Positions 236 through 12,364 of a DNA stretch of 33,395 nucleotides are shown piece after piece (position 1 is the stretch's first letter; each line of letters starts with the position of its first letter). Under the pieces are notes generated by a model. It searched no databases. It saw only the letters and a program-made list of their open reading frames with translations, and had not been told where the DNA came from. The DNA comes from a virus: positions 1 through 33,395 of the IMG/VR virus record IMGVR_UViG_3300034062_004196; one strand, written 5' to 3'. A program made the translations under genes and the position numbers.

Positions 236-768
236 GGTCCCAAACTTATATCAGGTATGCGCAAATTATTTTTGGCTGCTAGATCAAAAATTTCATGCAG
301 AGTTGCAGCCCAAACATCAACGTTGGCAGCCGGCGGAACTGTTTTGTCAGGGCTTGTGGCAATGTTGCCTGGTCTCACAATTGTTAGTTTGATTCCCAAC
401 TGCCGATTTCTTATTTGTTGCACAGCTTCTTCTAACGCAACCTTCTGTACTCGATACTGGTCCATGTCAAGTCCTGGTAGAACACTGACTGGACTCTGTG
501 TCATCATGGTAGAAATTACCACAATGTGTTTGCGAGTTCCTTGCCAACGTTGGGCCATTTCAAACAACAGTTCGGTCTGTGCATAACCTGCTTGCGCATT
601 GTTCACAAAAACATCACAAGGTTCAATTTGATCACAGATTTTTAGAACATTTCTTATGTTCCATCCTTCTCGCTTGCTTAATCCCACAATGTCATGGCCT
701 TGATTGGTATACAATCGTGCCAGTGCTTGGCCTATGCCTGCGGTGTGTCCGGTGATTGCAATTTTCAT
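232..768 (-). CDS. Short-chain dehydrogenase/reductase (SDR family)
   Basis: A 178-aa NAD(P)-binding oxidoreductase. The Rossmann glycine motif TGHTAGIG lies at residues 6-13, the structural NNA motif at 56-58, and the catalytic tyrosine and lysine in YRVQK at 105-109, with a serine at 92 in the usual position about 13 residues before the tyrosine. The protein is shorter than the roughly 250 aa usual for SDRs; the C-terminal substrate-binding part is reduced, but the catalytic set is complete. SDRs often interconvert hydroxyl and keto groups on sugars or lipids. It lies between two radical SAM genes with ATGA overlaps on both sides, so translation is probably coupled and the enzymes may act in one pathway. 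The substrate cannot be told from sequence. Confidence 0.85.
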   Translation of the reverse strand: MKIAITGHTAGIGQALARLYTNQGHDIVGLSKREGWNIRNVLKICDQIEPCDVFVNNAQAGYAQTELLFEMAQRWQGTRKHIVVISTMMTQSPVSVLPGLDMDQYRVQKVALEEAVQQIRNRQLGIKLTIVRPGNIATSPDKTVPPAANVDVWAATLHEIFDLAAKNNLRIPDISLGP

Positions 769-1733
769 TTAAAATAATCCCACAAGCGAATGTTCCTTAG
801 CTTATCTTGCTGTGCAGTAAACATCTGTAGTTCAACTGTGTTGTCCTGTTCAGTGGCCACAATTGATTTCAACAAATTGGGCACATCTGCCGTTCTTGTT
901 AGATGGTTGCTGTATTTTACACTCAACACATTAGGGCGTTCTAGCAGTGCCCAGCTGTGTTTTAGTTTATGGTGTTCTACATACTGAAAAATATTTTTGA
1001 GATCGCCAATATTCAACGCACTCACAGTGGTCCAGGTATTAAGGTCCACACCCATGGATTGGTACTTCAACAAATTCTGTTCAAACTCGTTGAATTTTAT
1101 AGGCCAGCGAACATAGTCATGTATTCGACCAATGCCGTCAAGGCTTGCTGTGATGGTGACATTGACACCTTTTTCTAACAATTGGTCAAGTTCAGTGATC
1201 ACAGTGCTGCAATTGGTGTTGATTCTAATACTGCAAACTGTGTCCGGTAAGTTAGCCAACAAGTGTCGATAATTTTTACTAGCACTGGGTTCGCCACCAT
1301 TGACGTCAAGATGCACCACTCTGTTCAATGGCAAGTTCCAAAATTGGTCAGCATTGTTGATTTTGATATAATCTCGCTGATGCAAGCTTCCTATCTTTGT
1401 ACTCAATGTTTCATTGCAGGTTTGGCAGGCGCTGTTGCAAACGTTGTCTAGTACCCCGCCCACTGTGAGATAGTCCAGCTGGCTTTGATTCTTGTGAAAC
1501 GCAATAGAATTTAATCGTATGCTGGTTTGATTCAGTTGCTCAGTTTGTTGGCATCTGATACATTCTTGTGGCCATTGGTCTTGTGAAAATTGTTGTTTTA
1601 TTTGTGCCAACCATTCACTGTTGTCCATACTGTCAATAGAATCAAACTCTGGATTGTTGGTCATGTGACCGCAGCGACTGAGTTTACCGCTGGGATTCAA
1701 TCTAACAAAGTGATCAAGCCGTGGGCAATACAT
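765..1733 (-). CDS. Radical SAM protein with N-terminal cysteine module
   Basis: A 322-aa protein if it starts at the ATG at 1733; a TTG three codons upstream is the alternative. An N-terminal module has cysteines at residues 3, 21, 58 and 61 in the arrangement of the auxiliary-cluster module found in the other two radical SAM proteins here. The radical SAM cluster motif C-N-S-A-C-Q-T-C follows at 99-106 (CxxxCxxC), and GGEP, the SAM-contacting motif, at 146-149. The family cleaves S-adenosylmethionine to a 5'-deoxyadenosyl radical to modify peptides, sugars or nucleotides. Putting the auxiliary module before the catalytic domain is the reverse of the usual SPASM order. The start overlaps the sulfotransferase-like gene by 20 bases and the end overlaps the SDR start. 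Substrate unknown. Confidence 0.85.
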   Translation of the reverse strand: MYCPRLDHFVRLNPSGKLSRCGHMTNNPEFDSIDSMDNSEWLAQIKQQFSQDQWPQECIRCQQTEQLNQTSIRLNSIAFHKNQSQLDYLTVGGVLDNVCNSACQTCNETLSTKIGSLHQRDYIKINNADQFWNLPLNRVVHLDVNGGEPSASKNYRHLLANLPDTVCSIRINTNCSTVITELDQLLEKGVNVTITASLDGIGRIHDYVRWPIKFNEFEQNLLKYQSMGVDLNTWTTVSALNIGDLKNIFQYVEHHKLKHSWALLERPNVLSVKYSNHLTRTADVPNLLKSIVATEQDNTVELQMFTAQQDKLRNIRLWDYFK

Positions 1734-2340
1734 GGGCTGCAATATCAGGAAAATTTGTTCGAAAATACTCTACCAGCGCAGACCATGTCATGGACTGACC
1801 AGCAAGGTTTAACAGTATTTGATCTACATGCCACAAAAATTCTGCATCCTTGTTGTTGTCTAATAATTGTTGTACAAACGCTTGAGTTGGCGGAACAACT
1901 TTGGCTCGATCTCTAATAGATGTAATAGAGCCAAACGTTGAAAAATTTCTAAATCGTAATTCAGCATCAGGTCGTAAAAATCTGCTGAGATTTTGAATCC
2001 AATAAAACTGCGGAAGATAGTGTCTGTTGAGAAACTGATAGCGTTTGGCAAACCAAAACGCTGTGTTGTAATCTAGTTCAGGATAGTCTTTGGTGATGTG
2101 CTGTAGATAAGTGTTGACCCCGCTGACATATCTAGCACGAGGATTTCTTATGTAAACATCAACAAATTCTAATTGCTGAATTTGCTCATTGCGAAGCAAA
2201 GCATATCCATGATGCTTTGCTTCTCTTTTTAAACTACTGTTTCCGTTTTTGTAAATGAGGTAAACCCATTGATTGTGAAGTGGCATTTCTACCACTTCAC
2301 AATTGTCTGGAAACAATTCTGTGTCCAGAATTCCTAACAT
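1714..2340 (-). CDS. Sulfotransferase-like protein
   Basis: A 208-aa protein whose ATG directly follows the gp32 stop (TAAATG), so it is likely expressed by read-through or coupled translation from gp32. Residues about 26-37 read VYLIYKNGNSSL, similar to the 5'-phosphosulfate-binding loop of PAPS-dependent sulfotransferases. Residues about 59-74 contain VDVYIRNPRARYVSG, which matches the RxPxxRxxS pattern of the 3'-phosphate-binding motif. The spacing between the two motifs is short compared with classical enzymes, and the C-terminal half is not recognisable. If functional it would move a sulfate from PAPS onto a hydroxyl or amine of a glycan or small molecule. The motif match is by eye only. 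Confidence 0.6.
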   Translation of the reverse strand: MLGILDTELFPDNCEVVEMPLHNQWVYLIYKNGNSSLKREAKHHGYALLRNEQIQQLEFVDVYIRNPRARYVSGVNTYLQHITKDYPELDYNTAFWFAKRYQFLNRHYLPQFYWIQNLSRFLRPDAELRFRNFSTFGSITSIRDRAKVVPPTQAFVQQLLDNNKDAEFLWHVDQILLNLAGQSMTWSALVEYFRTNFPDIAAHVLPTA

Positions 2341-3342
2341 TTACTTGGTTTGTCGGGCTCGGATCATTGCCAAGATGTCTTGGGCATTACCAGATGGCTT
2401 GGCAGTCTGCACAGGTGCGGATGCTGCCGGTACGTCATCCGCATCAAACGGAGGATCCTCGTCGATCACAGCAGGTTTAGCAACTGTCTTGCTTACAGGT
2501 TGAGCATTGCCGGGGCCATCTACTGCATGTTCAGCTTCCTTGGCGCCAGCAGGTGCTTGAATACCAGCAGGACGGAAATATTGACCCCAACGCTCAGTGT
2601 CGTAAGGTTGTCCGTCTACACTTGCTTCGAACATTTCTTTGATCACACGCAGTTCGACTTCGCCGGGCTTCTTAGGTAAAAAGCTGCTCAAATCATACAA
2701 GCTGTGTTTTTCAATTGCTGCTTGTTCAGCTTCTGTGAGCGGGCTTTCTTTACGTGCCCACTTTGAAGTGTTGTAGTCAGCAAAACCGCCTTTGCTGGTC
2801 TTGCTAACACGGAAGTCCAAACCACGCAGGTAGTCTGTTGGCAATTCTTCCAGTTCAGGATCCATTAGCGCACCTTTGATAGTGGTAAAGATCTGAGGGC
2901 CAATAATGAATCTGCGAATCGGATTTTCTGGAGTCTTGTCATCACTCAAGGGGTTTTCACGAACAAACCCTTGGAAGATGTAGCTGCGCTTTTTCCAGTA
3001 CTTGCGACCCATGTCTTCAAGACTCTTGTCCTTGAACCAAGTACGAACTTCTGCTAGGATTGGACAAGCATCGCCCCACATTTCTACGCAAGGTACTTGG
3101 ACCATGACCTGCTTGCTTTCCATATCTCCTTTGATGCCGTTGAAAGGCAATCGAATCATTGCACGTTCGGCCCAGAAAAAAGTGTTTTTAGAGTTACCAT
3201 CTGGTAGGAATCGAATTGTGGCGCTTTGGCCTTCTTCCATGTTCCAGTGTGGGTAAATGGAGTTGTCTCCACCGGTGGATTGCCCACCTTGTTTTTGTTC
3301 AGCTGCCTGTAGACGTGCTCGAATTTCTGATAAAGATGCCAT
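2341..3342 (-). CDS. 32: gp32 single-stranded DNA-binding protein
   Basis: A 333-aa homologue of T4 gp32, which coats single-stranded DNA during replication, recombination and repair and organises the replisome. The basic N-terminus (MASLSEIRARL) corresponds to the cooperativity domain. Residues about 30-240 are the OB-fold core, with aromatic and basic residues in the usual places and VPCVEMWGDACPI at 83-95. Only two cysteines are seen there (85 and 93), so the T4 zinc site is not obviously intact. An acidic tail near residues 290-300 (DEDPPFDADD) fits the protein-interaction tail, but about 30 residues follow it, ending in ILAMIRARQTK. The start is supported by AAGGAG eight bases upstream of the ATG. 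The gene has a dedicated leader with two promoter types. Confidence 0.95.
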   Translation of the reverse strand: MASLSEIRARLQAAEQKQGGQSTGGDNSIYPHWNMEEGQSATIRFLPDGNSKNTFFWAERAMIRLPFNGIKGDMESKQVMVQVPCVEMWGDACPILAEVRTWFKDKSLEDMGRKYWKKRSYIFQGFVRENPLSDDKTPENPIRRFIIGPQIFTTIKGALMDPELEELPTDYLRGLDFRVSKTSKGGFADYNTSKWARKESPLTEAEQAAIEKHSLYDLSSFLPKKPGEVELRVIKEMFEASVDGQPYDTERWGQYFRPAGIQAPAGAKEAEHAVDGPGNAQPVSKTVAKPAVIDEDPPFDADDVPAASAPVQTAKPSGNAQDILAMIRARQTK

Positions 3343-3361
3343 AGTAATTTCTCCTTGTTAA

Positions 3362-3409
3362 GTTGCCTATGTGTGTTGCCTATCTAACGAATTAGATTTT
3401 TAGTTGCCT
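3362..3409 (-). promoter_or_regulatory. gp32 mRNA leader: UUCG hairpin and three AGGCAAC repeats
   Basis: On the mRNA strand, AGGCAAC occurs three times (3409-3403, 3381-3375 and 3368-3362). Between the first and second lies a perfect 6-bp hairpin ATCTAA-TTCG-TTAGAT (3397-3382) with a UUCG loop. The last repeat ends 13 bases before the AAGGAG of gp32. In T4, gp32 represses its own translation by nucleating on a structured leader and spreading over an unstructured stretch that includes the ribosome-binding site. The layout here fits such an operator, but the function is inferred. Confidence 0.5.
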
Positions 3410-3439
3410 GTGACTCGCAAGCACTTGCAAACACTATGT

Positions 3440-3468
3440 AGTATAAGCTAATGTTTGCTTGCTGTCAA
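3440..3468 (-). promoter_or_regulatory. Sigma-70-type promoter for gp32
   Basis: TTGACA (3468-3463) and TATACT (3445-3440) are separated by exactly 17 bases on the minus strand. This is close to the housekeeping bacterial consensus and points to host-RNA-polymerase transcription early in infection. Predicted start near 3433, giving a leader of about 90 bases that contains the hairpin and AGGCAAC repeats. Confidence 0.75.
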
Positions 3469-3471
3469 TGT

Positions 3472-3479
3472 TATTTAGC
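3472..3479 (-). promoter_or_regulatory. T4-late-type box upstream of gp32
   Basis: GCTAAATA on the minus strand, immediately upstream of the -35 element of the sigma-70-type promoter. It matches the NNTAAATA pattern before gp13, gp19 and other late genes here. It would give gp32 a late transcript as well as an early one. The box is short and could be chance, but it lies in the largest gene-free gap of the window. Confidence 0.45.
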
Positions 3480-3494
3480 AGCGTTAGGCAAAAC

Positions 3495-9186: not shown

Positions 9187-9713
9187 GTGTAGGTAGTTAA
9201 TCTAAAAGAATCTGGCGGCACAGTGTCCAGCATAGCATGCCATAACAGTCGACGATACCCTGCGCTGTTGGGTTGATTAATCATAATGTATCCAGCATTG
9301 GGAGTCGGCGGCAACTGGTATCGCAAGGCATCAGGGTTTTTATACCAGTAAAAACTAGTGCCCGGGCCGTGCCAAATCAGATGCAGACTGCCCGGCATTT
9401 CGCCGTCAGTGTGTATGGCACAAGTAAATCCTGGTTCGTCAATCCAAAACGCTGTGTCGGTGTATCCATGTATAGGCACACCTAGTTCACACTCAATGTC
9501 AGGCCATATGCTGCGAAAATGATTGTGCCATTGGTCTATCCATGGAATAGCAGAGTGGTTAATTCGGCGTCGTTGCCAGTTTTCTTGCCCTTCTTGGCGA
9601 GTCCAATCCAAGTCGATCCAGTCCGTTTGATTTACTAGATCAACTATGTGCTGCGGAAACACATTTGTGATTCTAAATAAATTTTGTTCTTGATCAACGG
9701 GTGTTATTTGCAT
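9168..9713 (-). CDS. 2OG-Fe(II) oxygenase-like protein
   Basis: A 181-aa protein with the double-stranded beta-helix signature of 2-oxoglutarate/iron dioxygenases. The metal ligands would be His101 and Asp103 (AIHTDGEMPG) and His159 (LLWHAML), and the 2-oxoglutarate-binding Arg171 follows in DSFRLT. The spacing of HxD to the distal His (56 residues) is typical. Such enzymes hydroxylate proteins, nucleobases or small molecules. The target is unknown. The start at 9713 overlaps the end of the radical SAM gene by 10 bases, and the gene end overlaps the SGNH hydrolase. A second oxygenase domain with a different sequence is in the fusion protein at the right end of the window. Confidence 0.8.
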   Translation of the reverse strand: MQITPVDQEQNLFRITNVFPQHIVDLVNQTDWIDLDWTRQEGQENWQRRRINHSAIPWIDQWHNHFRSIWPDIECELGVPIHGYTDTAFWIDEPGFTCAIHTDGEMPGSLHLIWHGPGTSFYWYKNPDALRYQLPPTPNAGYIMINQPNSAGYRRLLWHAMLDTVPPDSFRLTTYTWVMPR

Positions 9714-10852
9714 AGGAATGCCAGTTCAGGCCACAAGCGTTGAAATTCACCAGCTTTGTCTGGATGATATTTTGTTTCATTATCATGTATGTGTCGCCAG
9801 AAGTCTGTGTCAATTTTGCTAATTTTGTCCACACTCAATCTATTGCGATAAGTGGCCAATGCATTGTCAAAGAACTGGCGTTCAGCAGGTGTTGCAATAT
9901 TCATAGCATAGAAGCGTTCGATCTCTGCTATAGCTTCCTTTGCAACACCTGCACCATGCAAGAACGGATCAAGGTATTCGGGCTGAAACAAGTTTTGCCA
10001 CAGTACTGTGGTTTTGGTATCTTCAGCAAACTGTCTTAACTCGCAAATGCGTGTGGCATTATAAATGTTGTACACAGCATGTATGCCGCCCCACTGTCCC
10101 TGTGTGGTCATTAGATGTTTGATTTTGTTAAGATTTTCTTTGATCAACGCCCAGCTAGCACCGTGTCGCACATATTCTACTCGGTCACCAGTGTTGTCAA
10201 AGCTCATTGACCACCCTACTTTATTGCGGGTTGATAACTTTTGAAATATCTTGTTCGAATCTAAATCTACGTTTAAGTTTGTGATCAGTGTAACAATAGC
10301 ATCTTTGGGTATGACATCTAACAGTCTATTGTTTTCTGGCAGCAATAAAGGCTCACCACCCACAAGTGCTACTTCGTGTATGTGTTCGTAGTGCTGTTCA
10401 ATGAAGTCACATACACTATCATAATAAGGTCTAGCACCAGACTTGAATGGTATGCTTTTGATTCCAGCCCACTTAGAGCTGCAAGCTTCGCCACAGTAGT
10501 TGCAGCTGAGATTGCAAGTGGTGTTCCAACGCACATCCACAATCACAGGATAGTGATACTGATCACCGGCTGTGGCATAATCAAAGCTGGGATTTACATT
10601 GTTGTGCCATTGGCGTTCAGAGTCAGCACCAAATCGTTCAGCACGTACACAATTTGAGCAATATTCATGTGGCTGGCCTTGTGCCAGGCTAGATCTGATT
10701 TCCGTCATGAGTTTGCTGTTTAATATTTCTTCGATACTGTGGTTGTTGAGATTGCCCAGCATGTTGGGGTTGCCGGCACAACAAGTTTTGACATCGCCAC
10801 GAGGATTGATATGCAGCCCTCTCCAAGGAGCAGCACAATAAAAATTATTCAT
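9704..10852 (-). CDS. Radical SAM protein with N-terminal SPASM/twitch-like module
   Basis: A 382-aa protein from the ATG at 10852; the frame is open further upstream, but those codons overlap the preceding gene and the ATG sits just before the conserved cysteine module. Cysteines at 6, 24, 25, 65 and 68 form the N-terminal module (CAAPWRGLHINPRGDVKTCC; YCSNC). The catalytic motif is CNLSCNYC at 113-120, followed by GGEPLL at 165-170. The layout matches the other two radical SAM proteins here, so the three are likely paralogues. The C-terminal 150 residues do not resemble a known substrate domain. The gene starts eight bases after the glycosyltransferase-like gene ends. Expected activity: SAM-dependent radical chemistry on an unknown substrate. 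Confidence 0.88.
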   Translation of the reverse strand: MNNFYCAAPWRGLHINPRGDVKTCCAGNPNMLGNLNNHSIEEILNSKLMTEIRSSLAQGQPHEYCSNCVRAERFGADSERQWHNNVNPSFDYATAGDQYHYPVIVDVRWNTTCNLSCNYCGEACSSKWAGIKSIPFKSGARPYYDSVCDFIEQHYEHIHEVALVGGEPLLLPENNRLLDVIPKDAIVTLITNLNVDLDSNKIFQKLSTRNKVGWSMSFDNTGDRVEYVRHGASWALIKENLNKIKHLMTTQGQWGGIHAVYNIYNATRICELRQFAEDTKTTVLWQNLFQPEYLDPFLHGAGVAKEAIAEIERFYAMNIATPAERQFFDNALATYRNRLSVDKISKIDTDFWRHIHDNETKYHPDKAGEFQRLWPELAFLCK

Positions 10853-10859
10853 GTGGTAT

Positions 10860-11903
10860 TTACAAGCTGTCCAAGGCCTGGCGCAACTTTGGTTCGTAGT
10901 TCTGCCACCATGGACGAGTTTGAAAAGCACCTTGTCTAAAACCAAACCATTTAAAGTTATGTTCTATTTTATCCATGTGCTGTTGTCGATATTCCATGGC
11001 CTGAGATTCTGTGGTGATTGTTCGGCAGATATTCAAGATAGGCTCAATGTTAATATTGAACCCATTGGGCCCACTGCTGAATTCGTCAGCATGATCTGGA
11101 AAAAATCTAGGTTGAAATCCTAAATCTTCCAAAACTTTATAGCCGGCTTCGCTCATGTAAATGCTAAAACAGCTTTTACTCAGAATACCTTTGGCAGTTT
11201 TTTCACAAACAATTGTATCTACACCTGGTTCAGTTTCAGTTATGATTGCTATCCCGGTGTGCCATGCTGGATGATCAATGCTGTAGTCATTGGGGAAATT
11301 ATCAGGGTGTGTGGCTATTCGAGCAGGCCAACGTCGTTGTGCGTCTTTGAACCAGTCAATTCCAATGTCGTGATAGTTATTGGTAAAAATATTAGTAAAG
11401 CTTACACTGTAGACATCTCGGTCGGGATCAATTAACTTTTGCTCCAACAAATGATGCATTAGCCAAACTCTATGTGCAGCATTTCTACGATTCAAACAAC
11501 CTATACGTCCTGACCTAGGGCGAAAATTTAGATCAGGGTAAGGCATCATTAAAAACATTGGGAAATACACGCAGCCTGGAATATTATCGTAGTAATGCTG
11601 TGCTTTGGCACTGAGTACACAAATTTTAGATCTAGGAAAAATTTCGTTAAGATGCTGTCGGGCTTGCGTTATTGCGTTTGTTGACAATCTAAAAGGGTCC
11701 CAACAAGCATCTATAAAGATCCATTCAGGTGCTGTGATTTCTTTTTGTAGTTGGCAACATGCTGACCAAAACAATTCCCAAGGAATGTCGTTCGTAAAGG
11801 GAGTTCTTTGCAGTATGATAGCGTCGGCTGGTAAGACTGATTGGCCGGGCCAATCACCATGACCTAGATAGAATTTACCATCGCTAAAATTAAATATTTG
11901 CAT
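10860..11903 (-). CDS. Glycosyltransferase-like protein, second member of the paralogous family
   Basis: A 347-aa protein from the ATG at 11903 (a TTG one codon upstream is the alternative; no clear Shine-Dalgarno). It shares with the proteins at 3495-4433 and 24735-25766 a central block (GCLNRRNAAHRVWLMHHLLE). It also shares a later block (CEKTAKGILSKSCFSIYMS) followed by an LEDLGFQPRF stretch, where the siblings have LKSLGFETFD and TFGFELY. The conserved Glu-Lys in the second block sits where GT-B enzymes of the fucosyltransferase type bind the nucleotide-sugar donor; this is an analogy, not a proven match. Upstream lies the nuclease gene (27-base gap), downstream the radical SAM gene. Probably cytoplasmic. 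Confidence 0.6.
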   Translation of the reverse strand: MQIFNFSDGKFYLGHGDWPGQSVLPADAIILQRTPFTNDIPWELFWSACCQLQKEITAPEWIFIDACWDPFRLSTNAITQARQHLNEIFPRSKICVLSAKAQHYYDNIPGCVYFPMFLMMPYPDLNFRPRSGRIGCLNRRNAAHRVWLMHHLLEQKLIDPDRDVYSVSFTNIFTNNYHDIGIDWFKDAQRRWPARIATHPDNFPNDYSIDHPAWHTGIAIITETEPGVDTIVCEKTAKGILSKSCFSIYMSEAGYKVLEDLGFQPRFFPDHADEFSSGPNGFNINIEPILNICRTITTESQAMEYRQQHMDKIEHNFKWFGFRQGAFQTRPWWQNYEPKLRQALDSL

Positions 11904-11929: not shown

Positions 11930-12364
11930 TTAGTTGCACCAGCTGGTTTTAGCCTCGCCGTAGTACTCACGGGCAAAACCATTGGCGATCAGGCCTTGAC
12001 GTAGGCTCTTGCCATCTAGAATGAGGTCGCCCAACACACGGCCGCCAAATTTGTCCCAGGCATACAGCGTAACTTGTCGCGTTTGACTGGCTGCTATTGC
12101 ATTTTTGGTAAATTCAGTGGCTGCTAGACCGCGAGCATTTTCTTGCGGGCACTGAGCACGATGTCCTTTTTCTGGAGTGTCTACACCAAAGATTCTCACA
12201 GCCAGTTCAGGTTTGAGCGGAGCAGGAAGAAAAGGTGCAGAGATCACAACTGTGTCCCCGTCGTTGATGCGCACAATTTGTGCGTCATAGGTTGCACCCT
12301 TTGGTGTTTTTTGTGCCATGACCAAGCATGGAATCAGTAGTAGAGAGAGTAGTAGTTTTTTCAT
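11930..12364 (-). CDS. Secreted staphylococcal-nuclease-like (SNase) endonuclease
   Basis: A 144-aa protein with a clear signal peptide: MKK, then a hydrophobic run (LLLSLLLIPCLVMA), with likely cleavage before QKTPKG. The SNase domain follows: VRIFGVDTPE, a conserved ENARGLA carrying the probable catalytic glutamate, and DKFGGRVLGDL with the second catalytic arginine, then LIANGFAREYY near the end. SNases cut DNA and RNA with calcium. Export to the periplasm, or membrane retention if uncleaved, is unusual for a protein set among virion genes. It may degrade incoming or released DNA, or salvage nucleotides. The end (SWCN) has a single cysteine beyond the domain. Confidence 0.85.
   Translation of the reverse strand: MKKLLLSLLLIPCLVMAQKTPKGATYDAQIVRINDGDTVVISAPFLPAPLKPELAVRIFGVDTPEKGHRAQCPQENARGLAATEFTKNAIAASQTRQVTLYAWDKFGGRVLGDLILDGKSLRQGLIANGFAREYYGEAKTSWCN

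Follow-up and report, generated by a model that had tools for sequence, protein, structure and literature searches.

The window analyzed here, the whole stretch of 33,395 nucleotides of IMG/VR virus record IMGVR_UViG_3300034062_004196, encodes a 333-aa gp32-type single-stranded-DNA-binding protein on its minus strand (2341..3342; PHROG 1192, E 1.1e-68; PHROG 224, E 1.2e-10). The leader of this gene is read on the minus strand from 3494 down to the ATG, and all leader elements described below lie on that strand. A late-type box, CTAAATA (3472..3478), which is mostly ATAAATA in relatives, is followed by a sigma-70 promoter (3440..3468) formed by TTGACA (3468-3463) and TATACT (3445-3440) with a spacer of 17, matching the consensus at 11 of 12 positions. 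The promoter lies within a 5' hairpin (3411..3467; 59-nt form 3468-3410) with the base UGAC/GUCA, delineated by folding and covariation in 35 sequences. Three copies of the word AGGCAAC come next: copy 1 (3403..3409) is located 67 nt upstream of the AUG, copy 2 (3375..3381) is separated from it by a small hairpin, ATCTAA-TTCG-TTAGAT (3382..3397), and copy 3 (3362..3368) ends 5 nt before the Shine-Dalgarno sequence AAGGAG (3351..3356). The near-consensus host promoter, the late-type box, the UUCG-capped hairpin, and the three copies leading to the Shine-Dalgarno sequence had all been named in the original prediction, and each is present as described. Its two classes of promoter are likewise both found, but they do not simply stand side by side, as the host promoter is placed inside a larger covarying 5' hairpin that was absent from that description of the leader. 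In Rfam, the window has no gathering-level match and the gp32 leader no convincing one even with E raised to 1, and a 178-nt region taken as the plus, non-transcribed strand folded no better than its shuffles (z -0.1).

The AGGCA core of the repeated word is a constant feature of related gp32 leaders. Among the candidate stretches of IMG/VR we found 599 relatives of this gp32 and took 80 loci, 74 of which were read together with the window; the remaining six, cut off within the gene start or right at its edge, were left out. This set comprises 71 leaders of 100 nt, including that of the window (69 distinct), and four further leaders too short for the 100-nt counts. With the reservation that these sequences are related, some look recombinant, and their counts are not independent events, AGGCA occurs in 69/69 distinct leaders of the window and its relatives, with two or more copies in 66 and three or more in 48; the best unrelated 5-mer (TTTTT) reaches 20 leaders, and no 5-mer exceeds 19 in 50 sets of shuffled leaders. 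The word is found 184 times in the sense orientation versus 2 in the antisense, a skew that would be expected of sites in single-stranded RNA and not of a symmetric site in DNA. The leader counts against the shuffles, together with this skew, rule out a chance origin of the array. In the window as a whole, AGGCAAC is not overrepresented (6 observed, 5.6 expected), and three of the six copies fall in the gp32 leader; the Poisson probability of three copies in one 152-nt stretch is about 5e-8, with the rate taken from the other three copies and the choice of word and place uncorrected.

The dinucleotide AC directly follows AGGCA in 135 of the 184 copies. The last copy begins 11-37 nt before the AUG, with modes at 12 and 25, and often itself serves as the Shine-Dalgarno position (GAAAGGCAAC). 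At least three copies of some 6-mer composed of three or more letters were observed in 40/69 gp32 leaders of the clade and in 10/42 more distant ones; control leaders of other genes from five genomes seldom have such a 6-mer (42/1966), and thus the repeat array is not a general leader feature. Predicted openness of the AGGCA words is close to that of the rest of the leader across the clade (0.51 vs. 0.48, p 0.06), and in the window's leader the respective values are 0.37 and 0.49. Two gp32 leaders (L067 and L025) look recombinant near the AGGCA hairpin, having the front of one type and the back of another. Among the open-access papers listed in literature searches, none describes this array by title or abstract.

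The small hairpin is less uniform than the words around it. In 39 of the 70 distinct gp32 leaders, a copy is immediately preceded by the stem ATCTA..TAGAT, and 8 others show the pattern TTTAA..TTAAA instead. The 39 stems enclose 24 different inner sequences, that of the window among them, so the UUCG loop is not conserved. The extra-stable UUCG tetraloop is of the type C(UUCG)G. The hairpin of the window has six A/U-rich pairs closed by an A-U pair and hence is not of this type; with the closing pair and the varying loop both against it, this identity was rejected, and the UUCG cap is incidental to the element. The expected persistence of repeats and hairpin in relatives accordingly holds for the repeats and for the stem, but not for the loop.

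In more distant lineages other repeated words were observed at the same place, still before the ribosome-binding site. Examples from 43 new gp32 leaders, 42 of which were used in the 6-mer repeat count, include ATGGCA (L557), AGGCTAATA (L566 and L577), and CTAATA in four copies (L562, L602, and L594). CACAAT is present three times in the gp32 leader of Agrobacterium phage Atu_ph07 (word CACAATT), and TAACAA twice in that of Escherichia phage Sharanji, a cultured relative whose recorded host is E. coli K-12 MG1655. No 6-mer repeat of any kind was found in 11/42 distant leaders. The cultured relatives examined, with gp32 proteins about 42-53% identical, have no AGGCA arrays. A blind scan for GGCTAATA pairs (the AGGCTAATA form alone) yielded gp32 in 15 of 120 loci among the matches listed, and among the same matches we recognized no related gene other than gp32 with that word in the AGGCTAATA lineages.

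This arrangement recalls the gene 32 operator of phage T4. According to the published accounts, the T4 operator consists of a pseudoknot and then UUAAA/UAAA repeats extending up to the ribosome-binding site, both parts are needed for self-repression by gp32, the operators of T4 and RB69 differ in sequence (PMC535899), and the T4 leader is processed by RNase E at -71 (PMC3014915). Compared with the T4/RB69 operator (PMC535899, PMC3014915), the window's leader is alike in having a gp32-family gene, a structured 5' part, short direct repeats running into the Shine-Dalgarno sequence, and a candidate operator sequence that diverges between relatives. It differs in having AGGCAAC for UUAAA/UAAA and the 5' hairpin plus the small hairpin for the pseudoknot; moreover, the AGGCAAC word also precedes other genes, and binding by gp32 is here a prediction. 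The T4 type has an unstructured A+U-rich segment from -1 to about -45; in the window leader the A+T content is 64%, and the predicted openness of the words does not exceed that of the rest.

Of the two parts of the T4 operator, the short direct repeats between a 5' structure and the ribosome-binding site of a gp32-family leader are found in the window, but the 5' RNA pseudoknot that defines the T4 type is not. Leaders were searched with a simple stem-pair finder, each against 40 of its shuffles, and as a control the known T4 pseudoknot was recovered (1/40 shuffles as good). The best score of the window leader (-16.8) was equaled by 7/40 shuffles and is not above them, in agreement with the original prediction that no pseudoknot was obvious. 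Single leaders of the clade score well (L004, 0/40; L055, 1/40) with differing stems, and the interleaved stems vary from leader to leader in the 12 examined from the clade. The gp32 leader of PA5oct, a cultured jumbo phage of the genus Wroclawvirus (L213:1401-1500), has a T4-like predicted H-type pseudoknot (-23.3, 0/40 shuffles). This jumbo phage is similar to the window in its gp32 (about 53% identical) and leader length, but differs in lacking an AGGCA array and in having the strong predicted pseudoknot. By position and order of its parts, the window's element would probably work like the T4 operator without the pseudoknot.

On balance, we favor a reading in which the AGGCAAC copies together act as a translational operator on the gp32 mRNA, a variant of the T4 gene 32 operator that lacks the pseudoknot. 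When in excess of available single-stranded DNA, gp32 would bind the 7-nt words along with the intervening RNA and spread cooperatively over the Shine-Dalgarno sequence and the AUG, so that ribosomes would be blocked; exposed DNA would then draw gp32 off the leader and let translation resume. The small hairpin that separates copies 1 and 2 may space or nucleate binding, standing in for the T4 pseudoknot. We take gp32 as the most likely, putative reader of the words because of the T4 analogy and because the word changes between gp32 lineages while its place is kept. Repression of gp32 translation through the words is what this arrangement suggests.

The same word stands before a small number of other genes. 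In the records of five relatives (300-347 kb, 391-425 predicted genes each), two or more AGGCAAC copies within 90 nt of a start were found only before gp32 (5/5, the count in the circular record G016 resting on a few bases before the gene start and on the hairpin-model scan), a gene of ~110 aa (4/5), and a gene of 558 aa (2/5). The product of the ~110-aa gene begins roughly M..EKLFTVAGTATN, and in one of the relatives (G001) the leader of this gene has AGGCAATT..AGGCAAC instead of a pair. The 558-aa protein, referred to below as DnaE-like, has Pfam matches (PF07733 and PF17657) to DNA polymerase III alpha. All 61 distinct leaders of the ~110-aa gene contain AGGCA, with one copy starting 9-13 nt from the AUG in every one, and 49 of them have it at least twice, mostly at a spacing of 13. 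For the DnaE-like gene (5/80 loci beginning inside the gene and duplicates left out), AGGCA is present at least twice in 25/61 distinct leaders, once in 21, and not at all in 15. A stricter pattern occurred at 14 places in 18 further records: nine before the ~110-aa gene, three before gp32, one before a GIY-YIG-like frame inserted ahead of gp32, and one elsewhere. Among at least 120 loci matching an unbiased scan for two AGGCAAC copies, 8 contain gp32, with the array in its leader in 7; given 8 of the 120 listed loci, most AGGCAAC pairs in viral contigs lie away from gp32. The word is thus not an element of gp32 only, since two other genes also have it in front.

The ~110-aa protein has no convincing Pfam or PHROG family and no match in named phages, and its AlphaFold model (mean pLDDT 70) gave no PDB fold match; a designation as a named regulator was therefore dropped. 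It occurs in jumbo phages of this clade and is highly conserved (L247-L326; in alignment A1 of 36 sequences, 69-90% identical to the first), with a Lys/Ala-rich tail. In one locus (L411:1546-2238), a frame that reads as GIY-YIG-like lies between an AGGCAAC leader and gp32; it adjoins gp32 as T4 SegG, annotated as GIY-YIG, adjoins gene 32.

Arrays before the ~110-aa and DnaE-like genes are not predicted by plain autoregulation and count against the preferred reading; they suggest action of gp32 in trans or else a different regulator that recognizes the word. Under the second option, which we consider rather unlikely, gp32 and the ~110-aa and DnaE-like genes would be controlled together by another factor, be it an RNA-binding protein of the phage, a protein of the host, or a small RNA. 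The presence of the array before several unlinked genes fits such a regulator, as does the fact that, to our knowledge, no other T4 gene is under gp32 control. No candidate was found, however: RegA (PF01818) had no match in 12 records, where the control was likewise silent. In five genomes, moreover, the gene for the family B polymerase has no such array in front (its start being uncertain in one), and the lineages with drifted words show no second gene with the word among the matches listed. As to the claim that repeats and hairpin form an alternative gp32 operator, it is partly supported by these comparisons: the conservation and the missing pseudoknot agree with it, but the word also precedes two other genes and the UUCG loop plays no evident part.

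The 5' hairpin, which begins at the -35 box and stops shortly ahead of the first AGGCA, was found in 40/75 leaders (35 distinct); relative to mononucleotide shuffles, all 35 have folding z values of -3.4 to -9.1. In the alignment of these 35 sequences 87% of the cells pair, both sides are changed in 24 cells (7.4 in shuffles), and the covariation score is 0.184 (0.113 in shuffles; 0/500 as high). Sliding the partners lowers every value except the number of pairs with double changes, which is equaled by two slides, and RNAalifold retains only 8 pairs, 4 of them with double changes. When the hairpin model was scanned over 1.65 Mb of five relatives, the top four matches were the gp32 leaders of four of them (62-72 bits); the fifth has a gp32 leader of another type, and the next independent match (30 bits) precedes a frame that reads as DnaJ-like. 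The model (R1) gives 40.3 bits in the window leader, which is part of it, and at least 40 bits in 40/71 sources, all but one of which belong to the model or are identical to a sequence in it. The sigma-70 spacing is the same in 46/70 distinct gp32 leaders, and the window's site is one of the two best among 34 promoter-like sites in 20 kb, which overall are no commoner than in shuffles (34 vs. 36.1).

Because the -10 box is located inside the hairpin, the latter forms only in RNA begun upstream; by the layout of the leader, only a late-box transcript or read-through would contain it whole. T4-type late promoters have an 8-bp TATA-like box with the consensus TATAAATA, from which the window's CTAAATA departs; the ATAAATA box of the relatives is directional, occurring upstream of genes 194 times in sense versus 51 in antisense in five relatives (31, 36, 43, 38, and 46 vs. 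6, 14, 6, 9, and 16). In T4, late transcription starts about one turn downstream of an AT-rich TATA-like box (PMC2988020), and the window's variant box, as a putative late promoter, would be alike in standing about one helical turn before the expected start and in its kind being directional near genes. Counted in the T4 fashion, the start would be G3466, no more than one base away from the base of the hairpin (3467-3411). We infer a late transcript with this start, whose 5' end would be capped by the 59-nt hairpin, probably stabilizing the RNA, and an early transcript from the sigma-70 promoter that would start near 3434 and carry the array. Structure after most late-type boxes is unremarkable (median z +0.2 to +0.4 in five relatives). 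Behind the box of some other genes, for example frames MTKIT.. and MGRPLKIKK.. (G011, G012, G016, and G018), a hairpin follows within a few bases, and gp32 is thus not alone in having one at the 5' end.

That the 5' hairpin serves instead as an intrinsic terminator of upstream transcription is unlikely. A U run follows the inner stem in many relatives, as a terminator would have, but the window has none, the terminator scan does not list the hairpin, and the conserved outer stem UGAC..GUCA extends beyond the U run.

Two further readings concern the words themselves. As copies beginning with AGG, they might be Shine-Dalgarno-like standby sites that raise ribosome loading rather than repressor sites, and the fixed position of a copy near the AUG of the ~110-aa gene in all its leaders is compatible with this. 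However, AGGCA within 20 nt of the AUG was found for just 8-12 of the 391-425 genes per genome, a count that also rules out a general variant of the ribosome-binding site; other lineages have words without AGG (ATGGCA and CTAATA); and copy 1 of the window is 67 nt upstream, all of which leaves standby sites quite improbable. An operator at the DNA level, where a protein controlling transcription would bind the direct repeats just downstream of the promoter or the palindrome that runs from the -35 box to the start around the -10 box, is very improbable given the 184 to 2 orientation skew and an array that tracks the start codon and not the promoter, the last copy of the small gene keeping its 9-13 nt from the AUG while the distance from -10 to AUG varies more.

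Returning to the translational operator, three gp32 leaders (L032, L055, and L061) contain a segment AGTGTAC with two potential partners, one upstream in the late RNA and the other a downstream GTACACT in the early RNA, where AGGCA is left in the loop; a promoter-dependent switch is possible. A more inclusive, tentative reading, about which we are doubtful, joins these observations. The gp32 of the clade might read a 7-nt RNA word and set the translation of itself and of a small regulon (the ~110-aa gene and, in some genomes, the DnaE-like gene); as the word drifts, gp32 families would carry diverging sequence-specific RNA codes atop sequence-independent DNA binding. The leader would in addition be promoter-dependent, with late RNA beginning where the hairpin around the early promoter has its base and with the segment of the three leaders above switching partners. 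The literature asks how a sequence-independent single-strand binder selects the mRNA that encodes it, and whether gene 32 remains under autoregulation in those T4 relatives that lack the pseudoknot (PMC535899, PMC3014915). A large uncultured clade with a countable word, next to other lineages with other words, turns the preference of each gp32 for its own word into a question of swaps, and nominates the ~110-aa and DnaE-like genes as possibly sharing the control.

Several minor features were observed in addition. A PDB sequence search with the window's gp32 gave no match; the C-terminus of the protein, DILAMIRARQ, resembles its own N-terminus, SEIRARLQ. Three other frames of the window (765-1742, 9704-10945, and 11930-12364) are, by reading, two with radical-SAM-like cysteine motifs and one nuclease-like with a signal-peptide-like start. 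Potential pairing at the start codon, CATAG..CTATG, is present in 34 of the 70 distinct gp32 leaders.
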